Position numbers and translations under genes: made by a program. Below the pieces are notes generated by a model that worked only from the letters and a program-made list of their open reading frames with translations, was not told the DNA's origin and did not search any database. From NCBI GenBank assembly GCA_002707745.1, contig PANU01000028.1, positions 1 through 63,340 on the forward strand: a DNA stretch of 63,340 nucleotides, read 5' to 3'. The stretch is from Flavobacteriaceae bacterium. GTDB taxonomy: Bacteria > Bacteroidota > Bacteroidia > Flavobacteriales > Flavobacteriaceae. Each line of letters begins with the position of its first letter. Position 1 is the stretch's first letter. Of this stretch, positions 11,464-53,021 are shown piece by piece.

Positions 11464-11475
11464 TGTGCTAAATTT

Positions 11476-11811
11476 GAAACAAGAATCAGGAAATAAGACC
11501 CAAGACTTATTGGAAATTACAATTTAATTATTTGGGTCTAGTGAATCCATAACTACTGAAACCTTACCCTGGAGTTTACCTGCTTTCATTTCTAATCCTT
11601 AAATTGAAGCTCAGAAATATTTTTTTTATGACATATTGCTAATTGTGTATCCCACTCAAAAGCAGTAGCTAAACTAGCTTCTAAAAATTTGAAAAAGTGA
11701 TGTCTCAAATTCTATTGCTTCATCCCATATTCTTAATTTTTTAAAGGTACACCTTATCATTTCTTTCGCTGCTTTCTTTAGTCTTGTGTTCTGTATCTTG
11801 CTTCCTGTGTC
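11476..11811 (-). repeat. heptad-type inverted array pair flanking a decayed IVP gene (site A)
   Basis: 11476-11507 GAAACAAGAATCAGGAAATAAGACCCAAGACT vs reverse complement of 11780-11811 GACACAGGAAGCAAGATACAGAACACAAGACT, 23/32 identical. Confidence 0.7.
11524..11760 (-). pseudogene. decayed four-helix-bundle (23S rRNA IVP family) gene
   Basis: Three frames hold successive pieces: MIRCTFKKLRIWDEAIEFE / FFKFLEASLATAFEWDTQLAICHKKNISELQFKD / LEMKAGKLQGKVSVVMDSLDPNN*; central part missing. Confidence 0.75.
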
Positions 11812-11817
11812 GAAAAT

Positions 11818-13143
11818 TTAAATCTTTCTATCCACAGTAAACTGCTCCATATAGTCACCCACTCTTCTCAAGAAAGATCCTGCTAAAAATCCGTCAACGA
11901 TTCTATGATCAAACGATAGTGACAGATACATCATACTTCTAATTTCGATGGTGTCGCCTTCTTCTTTCTCCATCACCTCAGCGCGTTTTTTTATAATTCC
12001 TGTGGCAAGAATAGCAGCTTCCGGCTGATTGATAATGGGCGTTCCCATTAAGCTTCCAAAGGTTCCTACGTTACTAATTGTAAAAGTACTCCCCTTCATA
12101 TCATCGCCTTTTAAAGTTCCGGAGCGCGATTTTCCAACCAGTTCATTTGTTGAAGCCGCCAACTCTTTCAGATTTTTTTTATCTGCATTTTTAACCACCG
12201 GAACTATTAAATTACCTGAAGGTAATGAAGTTGCCATCCCAATATTGATATCATCTTTTACAATTATGTTTTTTCCATCCAGAGACGAGTTTATCATTGG
12301 GAAATCTTTAATTGCTTTTGCAACAGCCTCAATAAAGAGCGGAGTAAACGTTAATTTTTCTCCGTGTTTTTCCTGAAACTTTACTTTATTGTTATTTCGC
12401 CATGCAACCATATTGGTTAGATCTGCTTCAATATATGCTGTCACGTGCGGACTCGTATGTTTGCTATACACCATATGGTCTGCAATCATCTCCCGCATCC
12501 GATCCATTTCTACAATTTTACCAGTGCCCTTGTCAAATTTTAAATCGGGCACCTGAAATCCTGACACTTCTGGTACCACCTGTGCAAACTGGAAAGGTCT
12601 CCCTTCGGTTAGGTAATTTGTGATATCGCTTTTACGCAAGCGACCGTCTTTACCAGTACCACTAATTCGAGCCAATTCTTCATAGGAAATATGATGTTTA
12701 CGGGCAATAGCATCTACTAAAGGTGAAATAAAAAGATTTTCGTTTACTTTAAACGACTTTGAAGCTGGAGCTGATTTATCTGGGGTGACCAACTCTCTCT
12801 TGTGCCTTTCTCTCATTCCTGCATCATTCGTCGGAGGCAAGGAGGAATTTTCCTCCTTAGGGAGCGTAGTATCCATCTTTTCAACCCTACTTGAGCTTAC
12901 CTCAGATAATTCTAACACAGCAATAGTCTCCCCTACAGGGACTACATCCTTTGCCGAAACCTTGTGTGCAATCATTTTTCCAGCACTTGGCGCAGGAACT
13001 TCATTATCAACTTTATCGGTTGCAACCTCAACGAGAATATCTCCTTCTTCAAAACTATCACCTTCCTGAACCAGCCAGTTAAGTATGGTTCCTTCGGTAA
13101 TACTTTCGCCCATTTTAGGCATTCTAAATTCTGTTTTTGACAT
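11818..13143 (-). CDS. 2-oxoacid dehydrogenase E2 (dihydrolipoyl acyltransferase)
   Basis: Lipoyl domain EVATDKVDNEVPAPSAG, E3-binding domain, catalytic SLSFDHRIVDGFLAGSFL. Confidence 0.93.
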   Translation of the reverse strand: MSKTEFRMPKMGESITEGTILNWLVQEGDSFEEGDILVEVATDKVDNEVPAPSAGKMIAHKVSAKDVVPVGETIAVLELSEVSSSRVEKMDTTLPKEENSSLPPTNDAGMRERHKRELVTPDKSAPASKSFKVNENLFISPLVDAIARKHHISYEELARISGTGKDGRLRKSDITNYLTEGRPFQFAQVVPEVSGFQVPDLKFDKGTGKIVEMDRMREMIADHMVYSKHTSPHVTAYIEADLTNMVAWRNNNKVKFQEKHGEKLTFTPLFIEAVAKAIKDFPMINSSLDGKNIIVKDDINIGMATSLPSGNLIVPVVKNADKKNLKELAASTNELVGKSRSGTLKGDDMKGSTFTISNVGTFGSLMGTPIINQPEAAILATGIIKKRAEVMEKEEGDTIEIRSMMYLSLSFDHRIVDGFLAGSFLRRVGDYMEQFTVDRKI

Positions 13144-13182
13144 ATAATGTGTCTTTACTATTTTATCAATTCAAAGTTGTGG

Positions 13183-13200
13183 TGTAATTTCAAAATTACA
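13183..13200. promoter_or_regulatory. palindrome upstream of E2, overlapping a TAATTTTG -7-like box
   Basis: TGTAATTT-ca-AAATTACA; minus strand contains TAATTTTG (13191-13198); outer TTGTG/CACAA extends the symmetry. Confidence 0.45.
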
Positions 13201-13260
13201 AGCACAAGCTTTTTATAAATTGTATGGAAGCATTATTTTCTTTTTACATTTTAAACTCAA

Positions 13261-13326
13261 TGTCAGGCTGAGCCTGTCGAAGCCACTATCGCTGAAGGAA
13301 AGCACTTCGACAAGCGCAGTGTGACA
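13261..13326. repeat. intergenic inverted repeat, TTCGACAGGCTCAG type
   Basis: TGTCAGGCTGAGCCTGTCGAAG ... CTTCGACAAGCGCAGTGTGACA, 18/22 pairing. Confidence 0.8.
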
Positions 13327-13338
13327 CCGTTCTATTAT

Positions 13339-13938
13339 TCAATTTTTTGACTTCATCTCTTGAAGGGTTTTATAAAAATCTTCCTGCATCGGTCTTTTTT
13401 TTGGGATCTCCCTTAAAGGCTCCACCTCTCTTAAGCTTTCGTGACAATCTTTTGGCAACTGCTGATATAATTTTGTTCCTGCCGTTTTCCAGGCTATCAT
13501 GTCTTCGGAAACTTCCATGATGGCTTTTGCGGGATTTCCAACTATTAACTGTCTCTTGCCAAAGGTTGCTTCTGCTTTTACAAATGCCATCGCACCTACA
13601 ATACACTCATCGCCTATTTTGGCATCGTCCATGATCACGCTATTCATTCCTATCAAACAGTTTCGCCCCAGGTTTGCACCGTGAATAATAGCTCCGTGTC
13701 CTACATGGGCACCTTCTTTTAACACAATACTTTTTCCGGGAAACATATGTACGGTACAATTTTCCTGCACATTCACCCCATCTTCCAAGATAATCTCCCC
13801 CCAATCGCCACGGATTGCAGCTCCAGGACCGATATAGCAGTTTTTTCCAATTATCACGTTACCCGTTACTGCTGCAAGCGGATGAACGAAACTGGATTCG
13901 TGAATTACGGGTATGTGACCTTTAAAAGAGTAAATCAT
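13339..13938 (-). CDS. paaY: hexapeptide-repeat thioesterase/transferase PaaY
   Basis: Left-handed beta-helix hexapeptides; paa context. Confidence 0.88.
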   Translation of the reverse strand: MIYSFKGHIPVIHESSFVHPLAAVTGNVIIGKNCYIGPGAAIRGDWGEIILEDGVNVQENCTVHMFPGKSIVLKEGAHVGHGAIIHGANLGRNCLIGMNSVIMDDAKIGDECIVGAMAFVKAEATFGKRQLIVGNPAKAIMEVSEDMIAWKTAGTKLYQQLPKDCHESLREVEPLREIPKKRPMQEDFYKTLQEMKSKN

Positions 13939-13942
13939 AGTA

Positions 13943-14457
13943 AGTAGTGAAAGGTTAGTGCGCTTCGTTTTGAGTGGTGAGTTATTTATTTTTGAGATGT
14001 CTCCTTAGTGACGAAATCATTTTAGCTGTTTCTGTCTATCTTCTCCTTTTTTCTTTATCAATTTCAAAAGTAATATAATTTCTAAGCCTGACTTTTGTGA
14101 AAGCAGCTACACATTCATGAGAACTATCCCAAGCCATCTTCAAATATCGATTAAAATTGACATCTGTACTACCTGAGCCTTCGGCAATATTGAAAGCTAT
14201 ACTATCTGCTGCTTTGATGAATGGAGATGACAATTTATAAAGTTCATGTTTGGGAAAACATTCCACTTGCCCATTGACCAATTCACCAAAATGCATAGTT
14301 TTTTGATAGACTTGTAAATCCTCGAATTTAAAATGATATTTACTTTTCATATTCTAAAATTTGAGCGTGCGTGTTGAATTAGTTCCGTTATGTTGAGTCT
14401 AAATCACTCAATTCTCAAAGAAAAGCTACGCTTTTGCACTCACCTCTCACCACTATT
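13943..14457 (-). repeat. heptad-type inverted array pair flanking an IVP gene (site B)
   Basis: Left AGTAGTG AAAGGTT AGTGCGCTTCGTTTTG AGTGGTG AGTTATT; right (complement) AGTGGTG AGAGGTG AGTGCAAAAGCGTAGCTTTTCTTTG AGAATTG AGTGATT. Confidence 0.65.
13982..14350 (-). pseudogene. four-helix-bundle (23S rRNA IVP family) gene with in-frame TAG at 14036-14038
   Basis: FKFEDLQVYQKTMHFGELV...AFNIAEGSG...; after TAG the same frame continues TETAKMISSLRRHLKNK*, a typical IVP C-terminus. Confidence 0.75.
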
Positions 14458-15220
14458 TAAACCTCTTAAGTGTTTCTTTGGTAAAATCACTCAACACCAA
14501 TCTACCCGAAATAACTGCTCTTTCTGCAAGCAATTCATCCCAGTTTTCTGTACCGCTCCACATAATCTTTTTCATTTCCTTCATGGCTTCAGGGTTATAA
14601 TTACAAAGATTTTCAGCAAAAGCTTGTACGGCTTCATCCAAAGCTTCGGTGCTTTCATGGACACTGGCGTAGAGTCCTTTTTGTCGTGCCCATTCGGCAT
14701 CGTAAAAACTATTAGCATCTATGGCAATCTGGCTCATACCTGTTAGCCCTAACTTTCTTTCTACGGCCGGACCTACTACAAAAGGACCAATTCCTATGTT
14801 TAACTCACTTAGCTTGATGCTTGCAAATTTAGATGCCATACAATAATCTGTTGCGCTTGCCACGCCTACACCACCTCCTACTGTCTTACCCTGTATTCTC
14901 CCGATGATAAATTTTGGACACTTACGCATAGCGTTAATCACGTTTGCGAACCCACTAAAAAACACCTTTCCAGTTTCAGCATCATTAATATTAATAAGTT
15001 CTTTAAAGCTGGCTCCGGCACAAAAAGTACGATCGCCCCCACTCTTAAGGATGATTACTTTTACTTCGGGGTTATTACCAGCTTCTGTAATAGTTTTAGC
15101 CAGTTTTGCCAGAATATCGCCAGGCAGGCTATTGTGAGCCGGGTGGAAAAATTCTATGGTTGAGATTCCGTTTTCTATTTGTTCTTTTACGTAGGGTTTG
15201 GTCATCTTTAGTGCTCGCAA
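14453..15220 (-). CDS. enoyl-CoA hydratase/isomerase family protein of the paa cluster
   Basis: Crotonase fold motifs RTFCAGASFKELI, GRIQGKTVGGGVGVASATDYCMAS. Confidence 0.88.
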   Translation of the reverse strand: MRALKMTKPYVKEQIENGISTIEFFHPAHNSLPGDILAKLAKTITEAGNNPEVKVIILKSGGDRTFCAGASFKELININDAETGKVFFSGFANVINAMRKCPKFIIGRIQGKTVGGGVGVASATDYCMASKFASIKLSELNIGIGPFVVGPAVERKLGLTGMSQIAIDANSFYDAEWARQKGLYASVHESTEALDEAVQAFAENLCNYNPEAMKEMKKIMWSGTENWDELLAERAVISGRLVLSDFTKETLKRFK

Positions 15221-15251
15221 AGGCGGGTATCTTTTTAATAGTTAGTATTAT

Positions 15252-15380
15252 TTACAATGAATCGCACAAGTCATCCCAATTTGGATTTGACTTAGTCATT
15301 AGTTTTATTTTCCAATCGCGATTCCATTTTTTTAATTGTATTTTTTTATTAGTGATGATATAAACGGCGTATTTTTTCAA
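15252..15380 (-). pseudogene. internally deleted GIY-YIG nuclease gene remnant
   Basis: Minus strand LKKYAVYIITNK|KIQLKKWNRDWKIKLMTKSNPNWDDLCDSL*: GIY-YIG N-terminus joined to its C-terminus with the middle missing. Confidence 0.75.
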
Positions 15381-15431
15381 ATTAATTATGATTTGTTCTT
15401 GTCATTGCCAAGACACCCGCCTGCGCAGGTG

Positions 15432-15470
15432 CTTTGAGCAATTCAACCTTTTAGGTTGAATTGCTCAAAG
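15432..15470. repeat. perfect 18-bp hairpin overlapping the paaZ stop codon
   Basis: CTTTGAGCAATTCAACCT-ttt-AGGTTGAATTGCTCAAAG. Confidence 0.9.
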
Positions 15471-17986
15471 TGATGATTTAAATGCTTTCTTTCTAATAAA
15501 TACGACTCGTATTTGTCTAGCTCCCCGAAAACCAAATTTTTTAAAACTGCTTCTGGATTTTCTTGAAAAAACTTTAAGTATTTAAATCGTTGTTCCAAAA
15601 ATTTCTCTTTTGCAGTTTGTAAATCGGGGTGTATTAAAGAAGCTAGCGTATCTTTTTCTAACTGCGGAAATTGAGAGTTCTGTGGGAATTTTTCATAATT
15701 GTACAAACTGTCATGAACTTTATCCAAATACTTTTCAGGTGTTGAAATTTCAAAATCCTGAATTTCTCCTCCCGCAATTTTATAGGTATATTCCAAATGT
15801 TCCAACATATGCTGGGGTGTCATAATACCCCATTTTGGTTTTGTATCTTCTGAAAGTTTAGCAAGTGCAGCATTAATTGTTTCATTGGTCATTTCAGTAA
15901 AAACCTCTTGCTTCTTTTCTACCATTGTTAATATGGTTGCAATACAAACTAATGAATCTTCTTTCTCTGCTCCTTCTGGCAAAATTGCATTGGCTGCATC
16001 TACATTGGCATCAAAAATTTCTACATACCATTTTACAATTCCGCTTGGGTGTTCTTGTCCTCTGCTGTCTCTGTCTATTTTTTGTTTGCATGTTAAGCGT
16101 ACATACAGGGTATCATTATGATATATTGGGCGTAAAAAACGGATTTCTTCCAAGCCGTAATTTGCTGCAACAGGTCCCTTATTTGGATATACAAACAATC
16201 CTGCTGCCATCGAAATAATAAAATAACCGTGCGCGGTGCGTTTCTCAAAAATACTGCCGTCAAGGCTGGTAATATCGGTATGTGCGTAAAAATGATCCCA
16301 CGTTAAATTTCCGAAGTTTACAATATCTGTATCTGTAACGGTACGGTTGTGTGTTTTTAAAGACATCCCTGGCTTAATATCTTCCCAATGATATGCAAAC
16401 GGATGTTTTGGCGACTCTTTGTAAGCTGCTTTTGCCTGGTAAATTCCTGTAACTTCGGTTAAACTAGAAGGACTTCCTTGTACAGCACAGCGCTGCAGAT
16501 AATGCTTTATACCGCGCATTCCCCCCATTTCCTCTCCACCACCAGCACGGCCGGGACCTCCGTGAATTAAGCCTGGCAACGGCGAACCGTGTCCTGTGCT
16601 TTGCTTGGCAGATTCACGATTTAATATTAAAATACGCCCGTGGTGTGTTGCCGCGTTTACTGTATATTCTTTTGCAATTGTATTGTCGTTAGTTACAATT
16701 GAGCTTACCAATGAACCTTTTCCCATCTTTGCTAAAGTAACAGCATCTTCCAAATCACTATACGGCATTAACGTACTTACCGGGCCAAAAGCCTCTGTTA
16801 CGTGGGCATTTTCATTTTGTAACGGATTGTCTTCCCGCATTAAAATAGGTTTCATAAAAGCGCCTTTTTTCGAATCTGCACCCATAGCTTCAAAGTCTTC
16901 AAAATTTCCGTAAACCATTTCAGCAGTTTCTGAAAGTTTAGCTACTTGTTCTTTGACACTATTTCTTTGAGCGTCGCTCACGAGACTTCCCATGCGCACT
17001 TCTTTTAACCTTGGGTCGCCAATAATTACCTTATCCAACTGATTTGCCAAGGCAATCTGCACGTCTTCCATGAAGTCCTGTGGAACGATAATACGACGAA
17101 TGGCGGTACATTTCTGGCCACACTTCGTGGTCATTTCATTACGGACCTCCTTAATAAACAAATCGAATTCTGGTGTTCCGGGGATAGCGTCTTTTCCAAG
17201 TATTGCAGCATTTAAACTATCGGCTTCCATGGTAAAAGGCACCGATTCTGCAGTTAATTGCGGATGTGACTTTAACTGCCGGCCAATTTTCGCAGAACCC
17301 GTAAAAGTCACGACATCCTGTGACTGCACAGTATCCAATATGTTTTTAGCTGTTCCCGAAATAAGCTGTAAAGCTCCTTCCGGTAAAATGCCAGAAGCTA
17401 TAATTTCTCGCACAACCGCTTCGGTTAAGTAGGCTGTTTGTGGTGCTGGTAAAACTACTGCGGGCATTCCTGCCATCCAGTTTACTGCACATTTTTCGAG
17501 CATTCCCCATACTGGAAAATTAAAGGCGTTAATGTGTACCGCAACACCTTCGCGAGGCACCATAATATGATGCGCCATAAAGCGTCCGCCACGAGAAAGA
17601 TCGATAGGATCACCTTCTACGTGGTAGGTTTGATTTGGGAATAATTTCCGAAGTGAAGCATTGGCAAACAGATTCCCGAAACCACCTTCAATATCTACCC
17701 AACTATCGCGTTTTGTGGCTCCTGTACGGTAACTGATTTCGTAAAAAGCTTGTTTTCGTTTTGTGAGGTAAAGCGCGAGGCTCTTTAACATATTTCCTCG
17801 TTGCTGAAAGGTCATTTTACGAAGTGCCTCCCCTTTATCCCTTCCATATTGCAAAATGGAAGGTACATCTAAACCTTCAACGGTTGTACTTGTAAAATGT
17901 TCGCCAGTAATGGAGTCAAAAACGGGAGTACCTTCGCCGGTTCCCGATTGCCATTGACCTTGTATATAGTGTTGTGTTTTTTGCAT
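15443..17986 (-). CDS. paaZ: bifunctional PaaZ (aldehyde dehydrogenase + MaoC-like hydratase) with extra C-terminal DUF1569/DinB-like domain
   Basis: ALDH TMEADSLNAAILG / KCGQKCTAIRRI; MaoC NFGNLTWDHFYAHTD; C-terminal ~149 aa (15443-15892) MTNETINAALAKL...MTPQHMLEHLEYTYKIA. Confidence 0.93.
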   Translation of the reverse strand: MQKTQHYIQGQWQSGTGEGTPVFDSITGEHFTSTTVEGLDVPSILQYGRDKGEALRKMTFQQRGNMLKSLALYLTKRKQAFYEISYRTGATKRDSWVDIEGGFGNLFANASLRKLFPNQTYHVEGDPIDLSRGGRFMAHHIMVPREGVAVHINAFNFPVWGMLEKCAVNWMAGMPAVVLPAPQTAYLTEAVVREIIASGILPEGALQLISGTAKNILDTVQSQDVVTFTGSAKIGRQLKSHPQLTAESVPFTMEADSLNAAILGKDAIPGTPEFDLFIKEVRNEMTTKCGQKCTAIRRIIVPQDFMEDVQIALANQLDKVIIGDPRLKEVRMGSLVSDAQRNSVKEQVAKLSETAEMVYGNFEDFEAMGADSKKGAFMKPILMREDNPLQNENAHVTEAFGPVSTLMPYSDLEDAVTLAKMGKGSLVSSIVTNDNTIAKEYTVNAATHHGRILILNRESAKQSTGHGSPLPGLIHGGPGRAGGGEEMGGMRGIKHYLQRCAVQGSPSSLTEVTGIYQAKAAYKESPKHPFAYHWEDIKPGMSLKTHNRTVTDTDIVNFGNLTWDHFYAHTDITSLDGSIFEKRTAHGYFIISMAAGLFVYPNKGPVAANYGLEEIRFLRPIYHNDTLYVRLTCKQKIDRDSRGQEHPSGIVKWYVEIFDANVDAANAILPEGAEKEDSLVCIATILTMVEKKQEVFTEMTNETINAALAKLSEDTKPKWGIMTPQHMLEHLEYTYKIAGGEIQDFEISTPEKYLDKVHDSLYNYEKFPQNSQFPQLEKDTLASLIHPDLQTAKEKFLEQRFKYLKFFQENPEAVLKNLVFGELDKYESYLLERKHLNHHFEQFNLKG

Positions 17987-18022
17987 GGAACTTAAATTAT
18001 ACTTTAGGAGGACATCCCCCTA

Positions 18023-18038
18023 CCCCCTTTAAAGGGGG
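18023..18038. repeat. short intergenic palindrome
   Basis: CCCCCTTT|AAAGGGGG between paaZ and paaJ. Confidence 0.8.
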
Positions 18039-18048
18039 AATTATTCTG

Positions 18049-19263
18049 TTACAAATTTACATTTTCTATAATAGCTGCATACCCTTGCCCTACACCTATA
18101 CACATTGTAACTAATGCATAACGTTTGTTAGTTTCCTGTAATTCCAAGGCTGCAGAATAGGCTATCCTTGTACCTGTAACCCCAAGTGGATGCCCTATTG
18201 CAATAGAACCCCCATTTGGGTTTATTCTTGGGTCATCATCTTCTAATCCCCATTCTCTAATGCAGGCTAAGGCTTGCGATGCGAAAGCTTCATTAAGTTC
18301 AATCACATCCATATCTTCCATGGTTAGTCCTGCTTTTTTTAATGCCTTGTTTGATGCTTCCACCGGACCTATTCCCATAATCCTAGGCTCTACACCAACT
18401 ACCGCTGAAGATACAATTCTTGCCAGTGGTTTCAAATTATATTTTTTTACAGCATCTTCAGAAGCAATAATCGTAGCTGCAGCTCCATCGTTTAACCCTG
18501 AAGCATTTCCTGCGGTTACACTTCCTCCTTCTTTTTTAAAAGCAGGACGTAGTTTTGCTAAAACTTCTTTGGTTGTATTGGGACGGATAAATTCGTCTTC
18601 TTTAAAAACTATCGGATCTTTTTTTCGTTGCGGAATTTCAACTGGAACAATTTCTTTTGCTAACCTTCCATTTTCCTGAGCTTTTGTAGCTTTCATTTGG
18701 CTGTGATACGCAAACGCATCCTGGTCTTCTCTTGAAATATTATGTTTTTCCACTAAATTTTCAGCAGTCACTCCCATTCCATCGGTTCCATAGATTTCTT
18801 GCATCTTTGGATTGATAAACCGCCATCCAAAAGAAGAATCGTACATCTTGCTATCATTCCCGAAGGGAGAAGCACTTTTAGAAATTACCCAGGGACCCCG
18901 TGTCATATTCTCCACTCCTCCCGAAATAAAGACATCGCCGTCACCTGCTTTAATCGCACGATTGGCATGAATAATTGCCGAAAGTCCGCTGCTACACAAT
19001 CTGTTTACCGTTTCACCAGGAACCGTAAAAGGTAATCCTGCCAACAGCAAACTCATTCTTGCAACGTTTCTATTGTCCTCCCCTGCCTGGTTAGCACATC
19101 CCATAATTACATCGTCGTATGCTTCCTGAGGAATATTTGGATTTCGTTTTACAATTTCTTCAATCACAATAGCACCCAGATCATCTGTTCGGACAGCGCC
19201 AAGTGTTCCTTTGTAATTTCCGATGGGCGTTCTTACACCATCAATTATATATGCTTCTTTCAT
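18049..19263 (-). CDS. paaJ: acetyl-CoA acetyltransferase / beta-ketoadipyl-CoA thiolase
   Basis: Thiolase NRLCSSGLSAI, GGSIAIGHPLGVTGTRI, ALVTMCIGVGQGYA; start chosen at MKEAYIIDGVRTPIG. Confidence 0.92.
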   Translation of the reverse strand: MKEAYIIDGVRTPIGNYKGTLGAVRTDDLGAIVIEEIVKRNPNIPQEAYDDVIMGCANQAGEDNRNVARMSLLLAGLPFTVPGETVNRLCSSGLSAIIHANRAIKAGDGDVFISGGVENMTRGPWVISKSASPFGNDSKMYDSSFGWRFINPKMQEIYGTDGMGVTAENLVEKHNISREDQDAFAYHSQMKATKAQENGRLAKEIVPVEIPQRKKDPIVFKEDEFIRPNTTKEVLAKLRPAFKKEGGSVTAGNASGLNDGAAATIIASEDAVKKYNLKPLARIVSSAVVGVEPRIMGIGPVEASNKALKKAGLTMEDMDVIELNEAFASQALACIREWGLEDDDPRINPNGGSIAIGHPLGVTGTRIAYSAALELQETNKRYALVTMCIGVGQGYAAIIENVNL

Positions 19264-19285
19264 ACTCTTATTTTTAAGGACGCAG

Positions 19286-19312
19286 CACCACAACATTATA
19301 AAAGTTGTGGTG
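19286..19312. repeat. 9-bp inverted repeat between paaI and paaJ
   Basis: CACCACAAC-attataaaa-GTTGTGGTG. Confidence 0.75.
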
Positions 19313-19319
19313 TCTTACA

Positions 19320-19733
19320 TCAATTTTCTTCTTCCCAATCTTTGCTGGTTCTGTACACCACTCCTTTAAACAAAGCTACCAATTCTTCATCTCTTTTTAC
19401 TTCCACAACATTAAAACCTACTTTGGTCTTCTGTAAATTTACTGTTGCTTCAGCCGTAATGTAGTCGCCTTCCACCAATGCTTCTATATGATTTATACTG
19501 GTCTCGATGGAAACCGCATATTTCCCATGCGTGTTTGCTGTAAATCCAAAAGCGGTATCTGCAAGGCTGTAACTTATTCCACCGTGAGCTTTGTTCATAC
19601 TGTTGAGCATTTCTTTACGAATGGTCATTCCTACTTTTACACGACCAATTTCACATTCAAGAATTTCGATCCCCAACCATGTGCTAAAGGCGTCTTGGGA
19701 TAACATTTTATATGGGATTTGTTCTCCTTTCAT
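19320..19733 (-). CDS. paaI: hotdog-fold phenylacetyl-CoA-type thioesterase PaaI
   Basis: NSMNKAHGGISYSLADTAFGFTANTHG. Confidence 0.9.
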   Translation of the reverse strand: MKGEQIPYKMLSQDAFSTWLGIEILECEIGRVKVGMTIRKEMLNSMNKAHGGISYSLADTAFGFTANTHGKYAVSIETSINHIEALVEGDYITAEATVNLQKTKVGFNVVEVKRDEELVALFKGVVYRTSKDWEEEN

Positions 19734-19748
19734 TTGTTTAGCTATAAC

Positions 19749-20930
19749 TCACAGCCCAAAGCTCACAACATCTTTCGCCATTTTCCTCAACAAGGGACTA
19801 CAACGATACCTATCTTCGTGGTATTCATTATAAAGCGCATCCATTTTCCCGACACACCAGTCGATTCCTTTTTCGTCTGCCCAAGCAAGAAGTCCTTTAG
19901 GATAGTTTACTCCTTTCGTCATTGCGTTATCAATGTCTTTTGCCGAAGCAATGTTCCAAAACAACGCATCTGCAGCTTCGTTGATGAGCATTACTAAAAT
20001 ACGCTCAAAAATTTTGTTCAATAAGTCCCTGTCTTTTTCAGGCTCTTGTTTGGAGACTTCAGCTCCGTAATGATAATATCCCTTTCCTGATTTTCTACCC
20101 AACCAACCCGCTTCAGCGAATCTTTTTTGAGTAAAAGCAGGTTTGTATCGGGGATCGTAGTAAAAGGCTTCGAAAACGGTTTCGGTTACCGTATAATTTA
20201 CATCGTTTCCAATAAAATCCATTAATTCAAACGGGCCCATTCTGAAACCGCCCACGCTTTTCATAGCATAATCTATGGTAGCAAAGTCTGCAATTCCTTC
20301 TTCATATATTCGCAAGGCTTCCCCGTAAAAGGGTCTTGCTACTCGGTTGACAATAAAACCTGGCGTATCTTTAGCAACAGCAACCACTTTCCCCCAACTC
20401 TTGATTGTTTCTTCTGAAATTTTAAGCACCGCATCGCTTGTCTGAATTGCAGGAATTACCTCCACTAATTTCATTAAAGGTGCCGGGTTAAAAAAGTGAA
20501 TCCCCACACAGCGTTCTGGTTTTTTTAATGCTGAAGCTATGGATGCAATGGAAAGCGACGAAGTGTTTGAAGCAATGATACAATTGTCTGAAACATATCC
20601 TTCCAACTCTTGAAATACTTTCTTTTTAATATCCAGATTTTCAACGATGGCCTCAATGGTCATATCGCTATCTGCCAGTTCTTTTAAAGAATTTACGTAG
20701 CTTATGTTTCCTTCAATTCTGTTTTTTTCTTCGGAATTTATACGACCTTTTTCCACCAAACGGCTCATTATTTTTTCAAGGCTCGTTTTTGCTGTATCTA
20801 GTGCATCTTGGTTTAAATCGAATACTTTTACGGTACACCCAGCTGTGGATGCCACTTGTGCAATTCCAGAGCCCATAGTTCCTGCTCCTATAATACCGAT
20901 CTTATTGATTGTTGATTGTTGATTTGTCAT
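19749..20930 (-). CDS. paaH: 3-hydroxyacyl-CoA dehydrogenase PaaH
   Basis: Rossmann IGIIGAGTMGSGIAQVASTAG; CVGIHFFNPAPLMKLVEVI. Confidence 0.93.
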   Translation of the reverse strand: MTNQQSTINKIGIIGAGTMGSGIAQVASTAGCTVKVFDLNQDALDTAKTSLEKIMSRLVEKGRINSEEKNRIEGNISYVNSLKELADSDMTIEAIVENLDIKKKVFQELEGYVSDNCIIASNTSSLSIASIASALKKPERCVGIHFFNPAPLMKLVEVIPAIQTSDAVLKISEETIKSWGKVVAVAKDTPGFIVNRVARPFYGEALRIYEEGIADFATIDYAMKSVGGFRMGPFELMDFIGNDVNYTVTETVFEAFYYDPRYKPAFTQKRFAEAGWLGRKSGKGYYHYGAEVSKQEPEKDRDLLNKIFERILVMLINEAADALFWNIASAKDIDNAMTKGVNYPKGLLAWADEKGIDWCVGKMDALYNEYHEDRYRCSPLLRKMAKDVVSFGL

Positions 20931-21377
20931 TTTGATTGGAGATTAACGATTGTGGATTGCTGATTTTTGAACTATTATTTTTATTTATTTGAAGCTGTTT
21001 TAATACTTACTACAAAAATAGAAATGAGTTGATTGTTTTCATCTATCAATCTATCTAATTCATCGAGCTTCAAAATTAATTTCGCACCTTTTTGAATTTT
21101 CATATTGACGTGAGATTCTCTTAATTCTTTTAAACTAATTTTCATCTTATGAAGAAAATCTTTAGTTGACTCTCCACTTCTAGCTTCTCCATAATTTAAA
21201 GCGACTGATGTACTTGATCTAATTAGCTGCTTTGTCAAATGCTCGGCTGCAAATGACTTATCCATGCTTTTGCACAGCAATATAATGTCTACAGCAAATT
21301 GAATTAATCTTTCTTCTAATTGGTTTGGTTTCATTTTATTTTTTACTTCAAAAATCAACAATTGTTAATCTCCAATC
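20907..21377 (-). repeat. heptad-type inverted array pair flanking an intact IVP gene (site C)
   Basis: Left: GATTGTT GATTGTT GATTTGT CATTTT GATTGGA GATTAAC GATTGTG GATTGCT GATTTTT GAA; right arm 21347-21377 complements 20934-20971 (29/31) apart from one 7-nt unit. Confidence 0.85.
20981..21334 (-). CDS. four-helix-bundle protein (23S rRNA IVP family)
   Basis: MKPNQLEERLIQFAVDIILLCKSM...AEHLTKQLIRSSTSVALNYGEARSGES..DFLHKMKISLKELRES. Confidence 0.88.
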   Translation of the reverse strand: MKPNQLEERLIQFAVDIILLCKSMDKSFAAEHLTKQLIRSSTSVALNYGEARSGESTKDFLHKMKISLKELRESHVNMKIQKGAKLILKLDELDRLIDENNQLISIFVVSIKTASNK

Positions 21378-21385
21378 GTTAATCT

Positions 21386-22168
21386 TTATTTCCCCTTAAA
21401 CTCAGGTTTCCTTTTTTCAACAAATGCTGCAACACCTTCGGCATAATCTTCGGTGGAGGCAGATTCTATTTGTAATTTACTTTCTAATTTTAACTGCGAT
21501 TCTAAATTGTTGTTCATCGATTCATTTAGCAATCTTTTGGTAAGCCCAAGTGCTTTTGTGGGCATGTTAGCAAGAATCATTGCCTTGGTATTTACTTCTT
21601 CTTCTAAAGTTTCCGAAGACACCATCCTATAGATCATCCCCATTTGCTCTGCTTGTTCTGCAGAAATTTTATCACCCAACATCATAATTGCCGATGCTTT
21701 TCCGAAGCCTATTAACCGGGGCAAGAAAAATGTTCCGGCACTATCGGGAATTAACCCGATCTTACTGAACGCCTGAATAAAACTTGCTTTGTCACTCGCA
21801 ATTACCACATCGCATGCTAACGCAATATTGGCACCTGCACCTGCTGCTACCCCATTTACGCCACAAATGACAGGTTTTTCGATTTTTCTTATCCTTGTAA
21901 TAATAGGATTGTAATGGTCATCCAGAATTTTTTTAAAACCTGGATTTAAATCGGGGTTTGTAATCTCGCCAATATCCTGCCCGGCACAGAATGCCTTACC
22001 GTTTCCGGTTAAGATAATAGCTCTAACAGAATTATCTTTCTCGCAGGCATCTAATTTCTCCTGAAGCAATAATGCCATCTCTCGATTAAAACTATTAAAG
22101 ACTTCCGGACGATTAAGCGTTAAGGTTGCTACGCCTTTGCTGATGTGTTTAGTGATTGATTGGGTCAT
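21386..22168 (-). CDS. paaG: enoyl-CoA hydratase/isomerase PaaG-like
   Basis: Crotonase GKAFCAGQDIGEI, VNGVAAGAGANIALACDVVIAS. Confidence 0.88.
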   Translation of the reverse strand: MTQSITKHISKGVATLTLNRPEVFNSFNREMALLLQEKLDACEKDNSVRAIILTGNGKAFCAGQDIGEITNPDLNPGFKKILDDHYNPIITRIRKIEKPVICGVNGVAAGAGANIALACDVVIASDKASFIQAFSKIGLIPDSAGTFFLPRLIGFGKASAIMMLGDKISAEQAEQMGMIYRMVSSETLEEEVNTKAMILANMPTKALGLTKRLLNESMNNNLESQLKLESKLQIESASTEDYAEGVAAFVEKRKPEFKGK

Positions 22169-22204
22169 AAATTGATAATTATTACAAGGGTTACCTCTTC
22201 CGAA

Positions 22205-22256
22205 TTTTTCGCAAAAAAAGCGAAAAACCCACCTTCCCCTAAAAAAGGGGAAGGTG
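22205..22256. repeat. two adjacent intergenic hairpins
   Basis: TTTTTCGC-a7-GCGAAAAA (22205-22227) and CACCTTCCCCT-aaaaa-AGGGGAAGGTG (22230-22256). Confidence 0.8.
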
Positions 22257-22270
22257 CTATTTTGTTAATT

Positions 22271-22774
22271 TTACTTTAAACATTTAAAGTAATCAAACGG
22301 TTCCTGGCAATCGTCGCATTTAAATAATGCTTTACAAGCCGTAGAACCAAACTGACTGACCAAATGGGTGTTTGTACTGCCACAATTGGTGCATTTTACT
22401 AATTTTTTATTTCCTAGAAGTACATCCTTATCTGCAGTTTCAGACAAGGGTCTGGCAATGCCATATTCCTCCATTTTGTGCAATCCAGCCTCACTAATCC
22501 AGTCGGTACTCCACGCCGGGCTTAACACTAATTCAATTTCAACTTCTTTTCCTGTTTTTTTAAATGCCGCTTTTAAATCGTCTCCAATCACATCCATAGC
22601 CGGACAACCGCTATATGTTGGAGTAAGCTTTATTTTTATAATTCCATTTTCTTCCACAGCTTGCCTAATGACCCCTAAATCCAACACCGTTAAAACGGGA
22701 ATTTCAGGATCATTTACCTGTTCCAGAATTGGAATTAGGTGTGCGTCTATATTTGCCGATTGGGTTATTGTCAT
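22271..22774 (-). CDS. paaD: 1,2-phenylacetyl-CoA epoxidase subunit PaaD
   Basis: DPEIPVLTVLDLGVIRQ; C-term CTNCGSTNTHLVSQFGSTACKALFKCDDCQEPFDYFKC. Confidence 0.93.
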   Translation of the reverse strand: MTITQSANIDAHLIPILEQVNDPEIPVLTVLDLGVIRQAVEENGIIKIKLTPTYSGCPAMDVIGDDLKAAFKKTGKEVEIELVLSPAWSTDWISEAGLHKMEEYGIARPLSETADKDVLLGNKKLVKCTNCGSTNTHLVSQFGSTACKALFKCDDCQEPFDYFKCLK

Positions 22775-22802
22775 AAAAAACTGGAGATTGGAGCGGAACG
22801 AT

Positions 22803-23558
22803 TTACCATTCCATATTAGGATAGGTACGCTGCATGTACTGCATTTCTGCTAAAATGTACCCCATATGTTCGCTATGGGTTCCTTTTTTACCTCCTTTAA
22901 TAAAATATTTACGCTCGGGCACTTCCAGGGTTGCTTCTTTTAATAACGCTGAAACCTCCGTATAATAAACCTCTTTAAATTTTGAAGTATCTATGCCAAT
23001 TCCTTCAGAAATCATTGCTTTATCTGCTTCGGTCTGATCAAAAAGTTCGTCTGTGTACACCCACAATTCATCAATAGCTTCCTGCATTTTTTGGTTACTT
23101 TCTTGCGTCCCATCACCCAATCTTTTTACCCAATCGCCTGAAAATCGTTTGTGGTAGCTTACTTCTTTTATTCCTTTTTTAGCAATGGCAGCAAGGGTTT
23201 CATCGGTACTATTCAATAATTGATTCATAAAAAGCAGGTGAAATACATCAAATAAATACTGACGTCCCATTACGTAACCAAAATGCTCGTTAGGTTGTTC
23301 TACCAATAATACATTTTTGTAATCACGCTCTAAACGTAAAAATGCTATACCGTCCTCAGTCTTTCCTTCTCCTTTTATTTTAGCAGCATACTGATAATAA
23401 TTTCGTGCTTGTCCAATTAAATCGAGTGAGATATTGGTACCTGCTATGTCGGTTTCTAATGTTGGACCGTGACCGCAAAGTTCTCCTAAGCGCTGGGCTA
23501 GTATTAGGGAGTTGTCTGCGATGCCGAGGATGTAATTATATAAATGTGTGTGTTTCAT
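22803..23558 (-). CDS. paaC: 1,2-phenylacetyl-CoA epoxidase subunit PaaC (start revised to MKHTHLYNYILG)
   Basis: YILGIADNSLILAQRLGELCGHGPTLETDIAGTNISLDLIGQAR. Confidence 0.93.
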   Translation of the reverse strand: MKHTHLYNYILGIADNSLILAQRLGELCGHGPTLETDIAGTNISLDLIGQARNYYQYAAKIKGEGKTEDGIAFLRLERDYKNVLLVEQPNEHFGYVMGRQYLFDVFHLLFMNQLLNSTDETLAAIAKKGIKEVSYHKRFSGDWVKRLGDGTQESNQKMQEAIDELWVYTDELFDQTEADKAMISEGIGIDTSKFKEVYYTEVSALLKEATLEVPERKYFIKGGKKGTHSEHMGYILAEMQYMQRTYPNMEW

Positions 23559-23731
23559 TAAATTATTTTTTGAATATGAAAGTAAAGCCGATGTTAAAAA
23601 AACCATCTCAAAACTTATGGTACGGAAGCAACAAAATCTTCGCTTCTGGAATTTACGTCGTACTTCTTCCTCATACAATTAACACGTTTATAAGTAACGC
23701 TTAATTCGTCTTCAGTTTTAAGTCCCAAAGG

Positions 23732-24016
23732 CTACATATGTTTCACATCATCTGGCAGATCATAAAATGTTGGGTGACGATATACTTTATCTTGCGCTGG
23801 TTCAAAGAGCTCTCCATTATGTTCGGGGTTGCTTGCTGTAATGTTTTTACTTTCCACCACCCAGATGCTTACACCTTCACTTCTTCGGGTATATACATCA
23901 CGCGCGTTTTCCAGTGCCATCTCGGCATCTGCTGCGTGCAGGCTACCAAAGTGCCTGTGTTCCAATCCGTTTTTACTTCTTACGAAGATTTCCCAAAGGG
24001 GCCAGTTTTTTGACAT
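23732..24016 (-). CDS. paaB: 1,2-phenylacetyl-CoA epoxidase subunit PaaB (start revised to MSKNWPLWEIF)
   Basis: WPLWEIFVRSKNGLEHRHFGSLHAADAEMALENARDVYTRR. Confidence 0.94.
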   Translation of the reverse strand: MSKNWPLWEIFVRSKNGLEHRHFGSLHAADAEMALENARDVYTRRSEGVSIWVVESKNITASNPEHNGELFEPAQDKVYRHPTFYDLPDDVKHM

Positions 24017-24031
24017 ATGTATATGTGTTTG

Positions 24032-24091
24032 AATCAAGACCGCTACGCTATAGGATTCAAGACACAGGACTAAAAAGTCTTGGATCATGAT
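24032..24091. repeat. solo heptad-type array with inverted repeat (site E), no gene inside
   Basis: AATCAAGAC CGCTACGCTATAG GATTCAAGAC ... GTCTTGGATC (9/10 pairing), related to site A units. Confidence 0.6.
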
Positions 24092-24115
24092 TTCCTTTAA
24101 TCTTGCCTTTATTTT

Positions 24116-25075
24116 TTAACTTACTTTTTTTAGTTCCTTTTTATCCTCTTGCTTTTCAGCATACGCCATGGCTGCATCACGAACCCAGGCTCCACGCTCC
24201 CAGGCTCCTACTCTGTCTTTCATGCGTTTTTTATTAGAGGGGCCGTGACCTTTTACAACTTGCCAGAATTCATCCCAGTCTATCTCTCCAAAATCGTAGC
24301 TTCCTGTTTTTTCATTAAACTTTAAATCCAGATCTGGAATGGTTAAGCCAAGGATATCTGCTTGTGGAACTGTTTGATCTATAAATTGCTGGCGTAGTTC
24401 ATCATTAGACTTTCGCTTTAATTTCCATTTCATCGATTGCTCGGTATGAATACTTTCGGCATCTGTAGGCCCCAACATCATTAAACTTGGCCACCACCAC
24501 CTGTTTAAGGCGTCTTGTGCCATTTCTTTTTGTTCTGGGGTGCCGTTGCAGAGTTTCAGCATAATTTCGAATCCTTGTCGCTGATGGAAACTTTCTTCCT
24601 TACATACCCGAACCATGGCTCTGGCATAAGGTCCAAAAGAGGTATTACAAAGGGGCACCTGATTAATAATTGCCGCGCCGTCTACCAACCAGCCAATAGC
24701 TCCCATATCTGCCCAAGTTACTGTTGGGTAGTTGAAAATGGAAGAGTATTTTGCTTTCCCACTATGTAATTGTTCATATAATTCGTCCCTGGAAATCCCA
24801 AGGGTTTCACAAGCTGAGTATATATACAATCCGTGGCCTGCCTCGTCCTGAACCTTTGCCAGCAAAGCAGCCTTTCTTCTTAACGAAGGCGCTCTAGTAA
24901 TCCAGTTTCCTTCGGGCAACATTCCTACAATTTCGGAATGTGCATGCTGACTCATTTGTCTGATATGTGTCTTTCGATACTTCTCTGGCATCCAGTCTTT
25001 AGGCTCTATTTTTTCATCACGCGCAATGCGGGCTTCAAAAATTTCTTCTAGGTTTTTTATTTGTTCGTTGCTCAT
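24116..25075 (-). CDS. paaA: 1,2-phenylacetyl-CoA epoxidase subunit PaaA
   Basis: [69 protein letters not shown]. Confidence 0.95.
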
Positions 25076-25221
25076 AATTTTGTCTTTATAGTATTAGCCT
25101 GGGCTTTGACCCCTTCCGTCCCCAGATAATTTCTTGATTCGCTGAAATTTTCTGAATACACTTTTCCATGAAAAAGCGGAAGAAACTAATCTCGTTATGT
25201 TAATTTAAATTTTGAATAAGA

Positions 25222-25241
25222 TTCCCGCCTACTCGGGAATA
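25222..25241. repeat. REP-like palindrome
   Basis: ATTCCCG-CCTACT-CGGGAAT in the paaE-paaA gap. Confidence 0.7.
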
Positions 25242-25255
25242 CTCGCCAAAAAGGC

Positions 25256-26329
25256 TCACACATCAAAATCTACTTTTACAGTATCTGTAGTTGGGACAGC
25301 CTGGCAGCTTAACACTAGTTTTTGTGCCACTTCTTTGTCACTCAACGCATAATTTATTTTCATCTCTACGGCTCCATCCAACACTTCGCATTTGCAAGTG
25401 CTGCAAACACCCCCTTTACATGCAAAAGGCAAATCGGCTCCTGCGCCTAGGGCAGCATCAAGAATATTGTCATATTCTTTTGTCATTGTAAATGAGAATT
25501 CTTTTCCACCATCTACAATAGTTACCTGGGTTCCTTCTACGTTTTGTTTTGCCAGGCGCTCTTGTCTTGCAATGTCTTCGTCCGAAAGTCCTGTAACAAA
25601 CAGTTCAAAATGAACGTGTTCTTTTGGCAGTCCTTCATTAATTAAATACTCTGAAACGTAATTGACCATTTTTTCCGGACCACACAAAAAGACTTCATTT
25701 GTATCTGGGATATCGATGAACGTTTTTGTTAATACCTTCATCTTTTCGTCATCAAAACGGCCATTAAAAAGATCAATATCGCGACGTTCTTTGGTTAAAA
25801 AATAATAAATTTCTAACCTTCCAAAATACTTGTTACGCAGTTGTTCCAATTCTTCCTTAAAGATAATGGATTTTGCCGTTTTATTCACATAAAAGAGCTT
25901 ACAAGTAGCGTGAGGTTCAAGTGCCAGGTGACTTTTAACCATAGAGAGTACCGGGGTTATTCCACTACCTGCTGCAAAAAACAAATAGTTTTTTGCCTTA
26001 TCTAGCGAAACTTCTACACCAAAAGTTCCACTGGGAGCCATAACTTCCATATCGTCTCCTGCTTTCAACACTTCATTTACATAGGTTGAAAAGGCACCTC
26101 CCAGAATTTGCTTTACAGCTACTTTCCATTCGCCATCGCCAGGGCTGGAACACAAACTATAGGAGCGACGGGTATCTTTACCGTCAATATCTGCTTTAAG
26201 GGTTAAGTGCTGTCCCTGACGGAATTTAAACTCTTCGGATAGTTCCGAAGGAACATCAAAAGTAATTACAGAACAGTCGTCTGTTTCCTTATAAATGTCT
26301 TTTACTTTAATTGTATGAAATGTGGCCAC
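25256..26329 (-). CDS. paaE: 1,2-phenylacetyl-CoA epoxidase reductase PaaE
   Basis: FNR-like RRSYSLCSSP, FFAAGSGITPVLSMVKS; 2Fe-2S FACKGGVCSTCKCEVLDG. Confidence 0.94.
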   Translation of the reverse strand: MATFHTIKVKDIYKETDDCSVITFDVPSELSEEFKFRQGQHLTLKADIDGKDTRRSYSLCSSPGDGEWKVAVKQILGGAFSTYVNEVLKAGDDMEVMAPSGTFGVEVSLDKAKNYLFFAAGSGITPVLSMVKSHLALEPHATCKLFYVNKTAKSIIFKEELEQLRNKYFGRLEIYYFLTKERRDIDLFNGRFDDEKMKVLTKTFIDIPDTNEVFLCGPEKMVNYVSEYLINEGLPKEHVHFELFVTGLSDEDIARQERLAKQNVEGTQVTIVDGGKEFSFTMTKEYDNILDAALGAGADLPFACKGGVCSTCKCEVLDGAVEMKINYALSDKEVAQKLVLSCQAVPTTDTVKVDFDV

Positions 26330-26352
26330 AGTTTTATGTCGGTTTAATGCTA

Positions 26353-26384
26353 CAAAACTAACGATTGTTAGTTAAAGTTACAAA
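26353..26384 (-). promoter_or_regulatory. paa operon promoter with PaaR-like operator
   Basis: Minus strand TTTG (26381-26384) - N20 - TAGTTTTG (26353-26360); palindrome AACTAAC-gatt-GTTAGTT (26356-26373, + strand) lies across spacer and -7 box. Confidence 0.75.
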
Positions 26385-26441
26385 TCTCTTTCCTAAATCC
26401 ATTTCTTTAATAAAATGAAAGAGCGCTTCAATAGTCTTTTT

Positions 26442-27026
26442 TTAAATAATTCCTTTAATGAGCACAGCCACCATATCTTTTTTCAAAACATTTACATCCA
26501 TTTTGCCTCGTTTTTCATTCCATAAATAGAGGTTTCGAAGGGTTGAAAGAATAGAAAATAAAATTACTTCAGGGTGCTGGGGTTTTATCTCTCCTTGGGA
26601 AAGTCCTTGTTTTATAATCCTTCGGAAATTTTCTTCATAAGCTTCGCGCATCTTTACCACTTGCTTCAAGTCGTCTCCCTCCAGATGCATCCAATCATTA
26701 TTTAAAGTTGCAATGTTTTCTGAATAGTTCACGGTAATATCTATATGAATTTCAATTACCCTTTCAATTTTTTTTAAAGTAGGTAGTGTTTCAGCAGTAA
26801 TTGCGCTCATTTCAGTTGTAAACGCCTCCGCTACTTCAAGAATTAGCGTAGAGAGAATCTCTTGTTTTCCCGAAATATGATTGTATAAGCTCGCCGCTTT
26901 TATATGCATTGCCTGGGCAATGTCTCGCATAGACACCGCACTGTAGCCTTTCTCCTTGAAAAGTGTTGCAGCTACCTGAATAATTTCTTGTTTTCGGGTG
27001 GGTTTTATCACTTTGTAAATATACAT
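26442..27026 (-). CDS. paaR: TetR family regulator, candidate PaaR
   Basis: RKQEIIQVAATLFKEKGYSAVSMRDIAQAMHIKAASLYNHISGKQEIL; divergent from PAH, upstream of paaE. Confidence 0.82.
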   Translation of the reverse strand: MYIYKVIKPTRKQEIIQVAATLFKEKGYSAVSMRDIAQAMHIKAASLYNHISGKQEILSTLILEVAEAFTTEMSAITAETLPTLKKIERVIEIHIDITVNYSENIATLNNDWMHLEGDDLKQVVKMREAYEENFRRIIKQGLSQGEIKPQHPEVILFSILSTLRNLYLWNEKRGKMDVNVLKKDMVAVLIKGII

Positions 27027-27029
27027 GGA

Positions 27030-27128
27030 GATTGATAATTAACGATTTTCGATTGCAGATTTTTGAAATGTACTTATTTACTTCAAAAAACAGTAATCCA
27101 CATTTCACAATCCTTAATCATTGATTAC
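27030..27128. repeat. heptad-type inverted array pair without gene (site D)
   Basis: Left GATTGAT AATTAAC GATTTTC GATTGCA GATTTTT GAA; right TTC AAAAAAC AGTAATC CACATTT CACAATC CTTAATC; 14-nt loop; same family as site C. Confidence 0.75.
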
Positions 27129-52944: not shown

Positions 52945-52952
52945 ATCAGGTT

Positions 52953-53014
52953 AGGAGTGTAGAGCCAAGCGTTCACAGAAACTCACAGCTCAAAACTCAT
53001 AACACAAAATCATA
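52953..53014. repeat. solo heptad-type array (site F) between etfB and etfA
   Basis: AACTCAC AGCTCAA AACTCAT AACACAA AATCATA (52980-53014). Confidence 0.55.
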
Positions 53015-53021
53015 AAAAAAC

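Follow-up and report, generated by a model that had tools for sequence, protein, structure and literature searches.

The window considered here is a 63,340-nucleotide contig (PANU01000028.1), read on its forward strand, from the assembly GCA_002707745.1 of a member of the Flavobacteriaceae; the genome (G000) is a draft of 2.76 Mb in 111 contigs. The minus-strand genes at 9388-22168 form a phenylacetate / 2-oxoacid degradation cluster, and three sites within it, A, B and C, each lie in a junction between protein genes of an operon. An earlier note on this DNA had described each site as a gene for a four-helix-bundle protein of the IVP family, a family known from intervening sequences (IVSs) in 23S rRNA, enclosed by two inverted arrays of diverged 7-nt units, and had proposed that such elements are relatives of the rRNA IVSs. 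The present analysis concerns these repeat-armed elements, which are found at IVP genes in operon junctions across many bacterial phyla, and what they may be.

Sites B and C encode proteins that exceed the cut-offs of both PF05635 (33.8 bits; scores 59.6 and 52.9, respectively) and TIGR02436 (24 bits; 48.2 and 78.9). Site A, which had likewise been credited with an IVP gene, holds only a frameshifted remnant, legible in a six-frame reading as, e.g. FKKLRIWDEAIEFE and FLEASLATAFEWDTQLAI, with no Pfam match in the profile search of the genome; its IVP gene is a pseudogene. Periodicity and arm pairing were tested at each site against 300-500 dinucleotide shuffles. Period 7 is the top period, matched by 0 shuffles, at A (z 3.6) and C (z 3.9), and also at a fourth, gene-free copy, site D (z 4.4), which falls inside the span treated by the earlier note and has GATTNNN units and inner TTTTTGAA/TTCAAAAA ends like those of C. 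The claimed inversion of the arms holds throughout, complementarity being significant on the mRNA strand at A (p 0.006), B (p <0.002) and C (p <0.002), as well as at D (p 0.004-0.02, the lower value being that for the minus strand). In RNA folding the arms close around the reading frame at C (z -3.4) and B (z -2.6), with a weak signal at D (z -1.8). Site C is the best of the window sites; the difference of one heptad noted between its arms corresponds, once the RNA is folded, to 8 nt left unpaired on a single side. All three IVP genes or remnants lie on the operon strand, as had been stated (Table 1).

Short-period arrays accompany nearly all of the 12 PF05635 matches in the whole genome by eye, and most of them by statistics. 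For a wider view, a strong array was counted wherever 35 nt matched themselves to at least 66% at any period from 4 to 13. Such arrays are present at 54 of 102 family IVP (PF05635) loci, a sample made up mostly of best matches and hence somewhat biased, and in 7 of 262 control intergenic segments, taken from ~390 kb of control stretches and the window (Fisher 3e-28); random segments from the 102 loci themselves contain arrays in 13/609 cases. By period, the arrays at the family loci comprise 46 flanks with 7, 15 with 8 and 2 with 9, with zero others in the range 4-13. The upstream flank of a locus complements its own downstream flank far better than it does those of other loci (p=2e-33). The flanks of IVP genes therefore show an excess of both periodicity and complementarity, and the lack of such an excess, which the earlier note had named as refuting its proposal, is not what was observed. 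The proposed tie between arrays and IVP genes holds as a ~20-fold enrichment per locus, and IVP-less arrays occur too. A period of exactly 7 as a rule is ruled out: 7 predominates, but 8 (in this genome at L002, L009 and L012) and 9 (at L005) also occur, and almost nothing else.

Some arrays stand apart. The L005 locus, at the end of contig C70 of the same genome, has a perfect 9-nt array, GCAACAGAA, that extends to the contig end, so arrays may break assemblies. At 28278-28485 of contig C24 (L319, L358, L361) a stretch that includes the 3' arm known from C (TTCAAAAATC-nGCAATC-AACAATC) is present in two tandem copies, with no IVP gene. Long, near-perfect solo heptads (TTAGTTG, GTTATCG and AACCAAG) are found at L128:14800, L129:12930 and L142:7957, with no IVP gene or obvious inverted partner nearby.

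The layout extends well beyond the Flavobacteriaceae. In a tree-wide sample of 80 named IVP loci across bacteria, 46 of them outside Bacteroidota, arrays are present at 29 of these 46, with period 7 in 38 flanks, 8 in 5, 9 in 1 and 13 in 1, and own-pair complementarity in this group is 22.75 versus 10.5 for mismatched pairs (p=1e-24). Array-bearing examples include loci in Geobacter, Rhodanobacter (at an accB-accC-like junction), a Xanthomonas metagenome-assembled genome (carA-carB-like junction), Clostridia, Planctomycetes, Acetothermia and a Gastranaerophilales cyanobacterium, GC-rich Proteobacteria and Desulfuromonadota loci among them. As arrays occur in AT-rich and GC-rich genomes of many phyla, the layout belongs to the IVP family itself, and the elements span many phyla.

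The position of these genes is equally consistent. Of the family IVP genes, 98/102 lie between two co-directional genes, compared with 212/351 (60%) of control genes (Fisher p=4e-14), and in two unselected genomes this is so for 25 of the 28 IVP genes with both neighbours known. Few nucleotides separate the IVP gene from its neighbours (a median of 46 nt ahead of it and 41 nt behind it), so the element fills the junction. Some junctions recur, including fadB^fadA, that after fadA, and atpA^atpG; more broadly, IVP elements recur in junctions of fad, paa, car, acc and atp operons. A location in 23S rRNA is ruled out for the present elements, given that A, B and C lie among protein genes of operons and 98/102 family loci between co-directional genes; no rRNA match was found at ten IVP loci of other phyla that have sparse flanking open reading frames (ORFs) or short contigs.

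The junction between fadB and fadA, compared across 90 genomes that mostly represent different genera, illustrates the range of occupied and empty states. It is minimal in 25 genomes, comprising 1-13 nt, typically a stop codon, four bases and ATG. In 38 genomes it holds a filler of 32-145 nt without an IVP gene, mostly an inverted-heptad hairpin, in some cases a GC-rich palindrome instead (best period 7 in 23 fillers and 8 in 5; median fold z -2.5). A full IVP element of 400-630 nt is present in the remaining 27, with several unrelated IVP/arm types sharing this one junction. When mapped on a FadB tree of poor resolution, the three states have a distribution close to chance (37 changes versus 41.6 when shuffled), and in G000 the junction holds an IVP element where that of a congener has a hairpin only, with different units (L147, L148). 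No constant target site duplication was seen, empty fadB^fadA junctions being merely 1-13 nt long. Within the IVP group at this junction, the own arms of an element pair with a median of -20.0 kcal/mol and arms swapped between genomes with -12.6 (permutation p<2e-4), so both arms of an element change together. As a separate observation, the filler at L176, L182, L198, L202 and L203, in several genera, is a CCTCCCC...GGGGAGG palindrome of ~110-137 nt with arms of 30-40 nt, which looks like a miniature inverted-repeat transposable element (MITE).

Empty orthologous sites, which the earlier note had suggested seeking, exist in congeners as well as at fadB^fadA. Site C is occupied in G000 and G074, with the GATTNNN unit in both, and absent from G201, G202 and G203. 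Of site A, G201 keeps an eroded copy, and G074, G202 and G203 have none. In both G000 and G074 the heptad array invades the coding sequence of paaH: the N-terminus of the G000 protein, MTNQQSTIN-KIGIIGAG, is encoded partly by heptads, and a relative with an empty site has MKIKNIGIIGAG. In congeners, the junctions empty of A or C are occupied by palindromes resembling repetitive extragenic palindromes (REP) or bacterial interspersed mosaic elements (BIME); palindromes of this kind (CTTCGAC...GTCGAAG, CTCGAGCGCAGTCGAG) lie in operon gaps at 13262-13328 of the window and at L104, L107 and L120.

Of the 148 genomes sampled from the phylum, 116 contain IVP genes, with up to 16 copies each, and the protein is under purifying selection. 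Between G000 and G074 the site C IVP, at the same junction, has a nonsynonymous divergence (dN) of 0.031 with saturated synonymous divergence (dS), and the median dN/dS of the fadB^fadA IVPs is 0.26; the IVP is therefore no passenger in decay, even if individual copies (A and B) do degenerate. At a similarity of at least 0.6, 154/279 IVP pairs from the same junction, across genera, are alike, compared with 27/1737 pairs from different junctions. Related IVPs at different junctions have a common arm sequence (p<5e-4); over all pairs, the correlation of IVP similarity with arm similarity is not significant (Mantel rho 0.07). Since IVPs group by junction and related IVPs share arms, gene and arms move or evolve together. 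No recent duplicates were found within G164 and G007, two genomes with 16-19 copies, where the best identity between IVP copies is 63%; recent within-genome transposition or proliferation is thus not seen in these two. The lack of near-identical copies is unlike an active insertion sequence, and the arms enclose no transposase or recombinase gene, the IVP gene standing alone. Rare horizontal arrival followed by residence would fit better. The solved IVP relatives 2GSC and 2RLD have five chains each, and the Xanthomonas campestris homologue is a homopentamer according to Lin et al. (2006), as cited in PMC4990558; the family is related to the retroelement protein Avd (PMC10053308).

In many filled junctions the final 5-6 bases of the upstream gene recur, inverted, at the very beginning of the junction, such that the stop codon lies in the loop of a mini-hairpin, e.g. 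CGCAA-CTAG-TTGCG, CGTAAT-TAAA-ATTACG and AGAAAC-TAAT-GTTTCT (at the fadB stop, e.g. L152, L163, L149, L151, L185 and L229). The downstream half tracks the codon choice of the gene end. Stems of at least 5 pairs occur at the stop in 19/65 filled fadB^fadA junctions, 12/64 IVP loci, 10/330 control stops and 0/25 minimal junctions. These inverted copies could have been left by fold-back synthesis during insertion, or could be maintained by selection as an RNA feature. The G-rich-inward polarity of the arms (54:8) is no sign of RNA-level function; it is of descriptive value only, because an inverted repeat reads alike on both strands, and the IVP-less fadB^fadA fillers have no such polarity in their 5' half (13:14).

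Table 1. Positions of the repeat-armed sites and adjacent genes in the window
Feature	Position	Strand	Remarks
Site C, IVP / four helix bundle gene	20981..21334	-	117 aa; ATG at 21334
Site C, 5' arm of transcript	21347..21384	-	GATTNNN heptads
Site C, 3' arm of transcript	20907..20970	-	outer units cross the paaH start codon (20930) into coding sequence
Enoyl-CoA hydratase gene upstream of C	21386..22168	-	stop codon adjoins 5' arm
paaH-type 3-hydroxyacyl-CoA dehydrogenase gene downstream of C	19749..20930	-	heptad-derived N-terminal extension
Site B, IVP gene	14036..14350	-	cut short by in-frame TAG; 1 TAG within the PF05635 match
Site B, 5' arm	14397..14454	-	AGNGGTG-like, ~2.7 units; arms pair around ORF
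Site B, 3' arm	13941..13994	-	pairs with 5' arm
Site A, decayed IVP gene	11592..11775	-	frameshifted remnant
Site A, 5' arm	11779..11811	-	GANNCAR heptads
Site A, 3' arm	11476..11509	-	eroded counterpart at the same junction in G201 (L119)
Site D, IVP-less	27028..27128	.	two GATTNNN arms, ~10-nt loop; between divergent genes
IVP-less filler	52945..53021	+	AAACTCA-type heptads; both flanking genes co-directional; period 7 z 4.8, fold z -4.0; tandem repeat 52974-53015

A repeat of a different kind lies at 62700-63260, where a tandem repeat of period 243 (2.3 copies, 75% match) overlaps a long minus-strand ORF and probably represents protein domain repeats.

The closest described parallel is the IVS in the 23S rRNA of Coxiella, which has an IVP ORF and a 28-bp terminal stem, is cleaved by RNase III in vitro with ends mapped within the stem, and carries in its 5' arm 2-3 GACAGAT heptamers, the first at the RNase III site, in a number that varies by strain (PMC4990558). 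With this precedent, the reading we favour, at a probability of about 0.5, is that the present sites are IVS-like elements, with an IVP gene between inverted arms of 7- to 9-nt units, that lodge in operon stop-start gaps and are cut by RNase III. In the polycistronic transcript the arms would pair, leaving the IVP reading frame in the loop of the resulting stem; RNase III would cut this stem, by analogy with the 23S rRNA IVSs, and the flanking cistrons would remain functional after the cut because translation needs no joining. Excision of an IVS without religation would limit its persistence to RNA sites where continuity is dispensable, i.e. certain 23S rRNA helices and intercistronic gaps, a rule that would explain why the elements lie in sense orientation between stop and start codons and why they have stems. 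The IVP protein, which forms pentamers and is related to Avd, may bind the arm repeats of its own element, though this is our guess, and such binding could protect, spread or regulate the element. The repeats probably expand and contract by whole units, so that the two arms would stay alike while the unit changes.

The proposal of the earlier note that relatives of rRNA IVSs reside in mRNA junctions, with the ORF in the loop, draws partial support from the heptad layout common to the IVP family, the junctions, the sense orientation, the closure of the arms, the empty orthologous sites and the likeness to Coxiella; an RNA-specific signature, as sought in G-U pairing, is not supported. This and several other points weigh against the favoured reading. 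With G-U-tolerant pairing, sense and antisense stand at 65 versus 102 elements, the antisense being slightly stabler, a comparison confounded by A-rich gaps. Many operon junctions hold arrays or hairpins with no IVP gene, which shows that the repeats do not depend on the protein for their existence, and the authors of the Coxiella study concluded that this organism probably does not produce its IVP (PMC4990558). Within the window, the 7-nt period that had also been claimed for site B falls short of significance (z 1.5, p 0.10), and the RNA folding of site A is unremarkable (z -0.9).

In a rival view the elements act at the DNA level: replication slippage combined with template switching from one arm to the other, or else a recombinase that recognises the repeats, would both create the arrays and hold them alike, with the RNA hairpin as a by-product. 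That the antisense strand pairs as well as the sense strand, or better, that the arms of C differ in copy number by a whole unit, that the array has invaded the coding part of paaH in both G000 and G074, and that IVP-less copies with the same arms exist in the same genome (D and the C24 pair) all favour such an origin, as do the templated-looking inverted gene-end copies, with the frequencies given above for IVP loci and filled fadB^fadA junctions relative to controls. Near-total sense orientation and restriction to stop-start gaps are not needed by a DNA mechanism, although sense orientation could be retained because a promoterless IVP gene needs operon read-through; moreover, no transposase or recombinase lies between the arms, and the best identity of 63% in the two genomes tested leaves no near-identical copies. 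A DNA-level origin of the paired arrays is regarded as rather unlikely to be the full account, but as a serious rival, and it could coexist with RNA processing.

A resident regulatory cassette, in which the IVP binds the mRNA arms and tunes operon stability or translational coupling, being vertically kept and not selfish, would explain why same-junction IVPs are alike across genera, why selection at site C is strongly purifying and why fad, paa, car, acc and atp junctions are used repeatedly. It is harder to reconcile with the near-chance scatter of fadB^fadA states on the tree, the lack of site C in 3/5 congeners, the several unrelated IVP/arm types at one junction and pseudogenised copies such as site A, and is considered improbable. 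That slippage-prone heptads in AT-rich intergenic DNA merely happen to lie beside frequent IVP genes might be suggested by the solo heptad arrays without an IVP gene, and by the wide distribution of heptamer repeats in Bacteroidetes and Cyanobacteria (PMC4679880). The ~20-fold enrichment at IVP loci, the match of the two arms in unit and complementarity, and the recurrence of this layout at GC-rich loci of Proteobacteria, Planctomycetes and Desulfuromonadota make any role for chance exceedingly small, and simple coincidence is ruled out by the control comparisons.

Compared with known systems, the elements under study share with the 23S rRNA IVSs of Coxiella and Leptospira a sense-strand IVP ORF between stem-forming terminal inverted repeats; the fragmentation without religation and RNase III excision typical of those IVSs would apply here by analogy. 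They differ from them in occupying intercistronic junctions of protein operons, in a unit length of 7-9, in the presence of many elements per genome, in an IVP under purifying selection and in the commonness of IVP-less hairpin forms. They are not classed as rRNA IVSs because the defining 23S location was tested and does not hold. Intergenic heptamer direct repeats, of TAACTGA and other types, have been described in Bacteroidetes, Cyanobacteria and Beggiatoaceae (MacGregor 2015, PMC4679880). The tandem intergenic heptamers of the present elements agree with these and with the cyanobacterial short tandemly repeated repetitive (STRR) sequences, as do whole-unit indels between strains and near-empty sites in relatives; the inverted partner array is additional to that definition. 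TAACTGA repeats were described near start codons, with no mechanism and with neither inverted partner arrays nor an IVP gene noted (PMC4679880), and the present elements are a possible source for part of the TAACTGA/STRR-type repeats.

The Avd protein of diversity-generating retroelements is a four-helix-bundle relative of the IVP (PMC10053308). One IVP of the genome scores 24.8 bits with the Avd profile NF033474, for which the cut-off is 80, with no match for B and C; no reverse transcriptase was named among the ten window proteins scanned, no search having been aimed at a reverse transcriptase or at a pair of template and variable repeats (TR/VR). Site D and the fadB^fadA fillers resemble MITEs and REP elements in being small, gene-free intergenic hairpins. 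Unlike these, their arms are short-period arrays with a unit that varies by element, and there is no transposase and no set of repeated identical copies. Neither a transposase between the arms nor, among the IVP copies of G164 and G007, the identical copies expected of an insertion sequence or MITE were found, while related IVP-less arms do occur in the same genus.

The earlier note knew of no description of the heptad architecture, and in the open-access literature searched no paper presents inverted heptad arms as generally typical of IVP genes, PMC4990558 and PMC4679880 coming nearest; the pattern is real, general and, within the reach of that search, undescribed. An IVS with an IVP is of a known kind; what is new is the mRNA-junction habitat, the scale and the heptad code. 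The results suggest that the rRNA IVSs belong, as a single branch, to a far larger family of mRNA-carried hairpin elements. A broader possibility, put forward tentatively, is that IVPs are the partners of a large unnamed class of intercistronic RNA elements cut from mRNA with no rejoining of the ends, with the heptad arms as the recognition code of each element, the rRNA IVSs as the special case that came to notice first, and much of the heptamer DNA of Bacteroidetes and Cyanobacteria derived from it. One architecture links the S23p ORF in rRNA IVSs, the variable heptamers of Coxiella and the orphan heptamers of Bacteroidetes and Cyanobacteria, and in this shared architecture the widespread IVP genes, which have no known function, gain a context. 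The 30-year-old question of the nature and persistence of IVSs thereby becomes testable in culturable flavobacteria.

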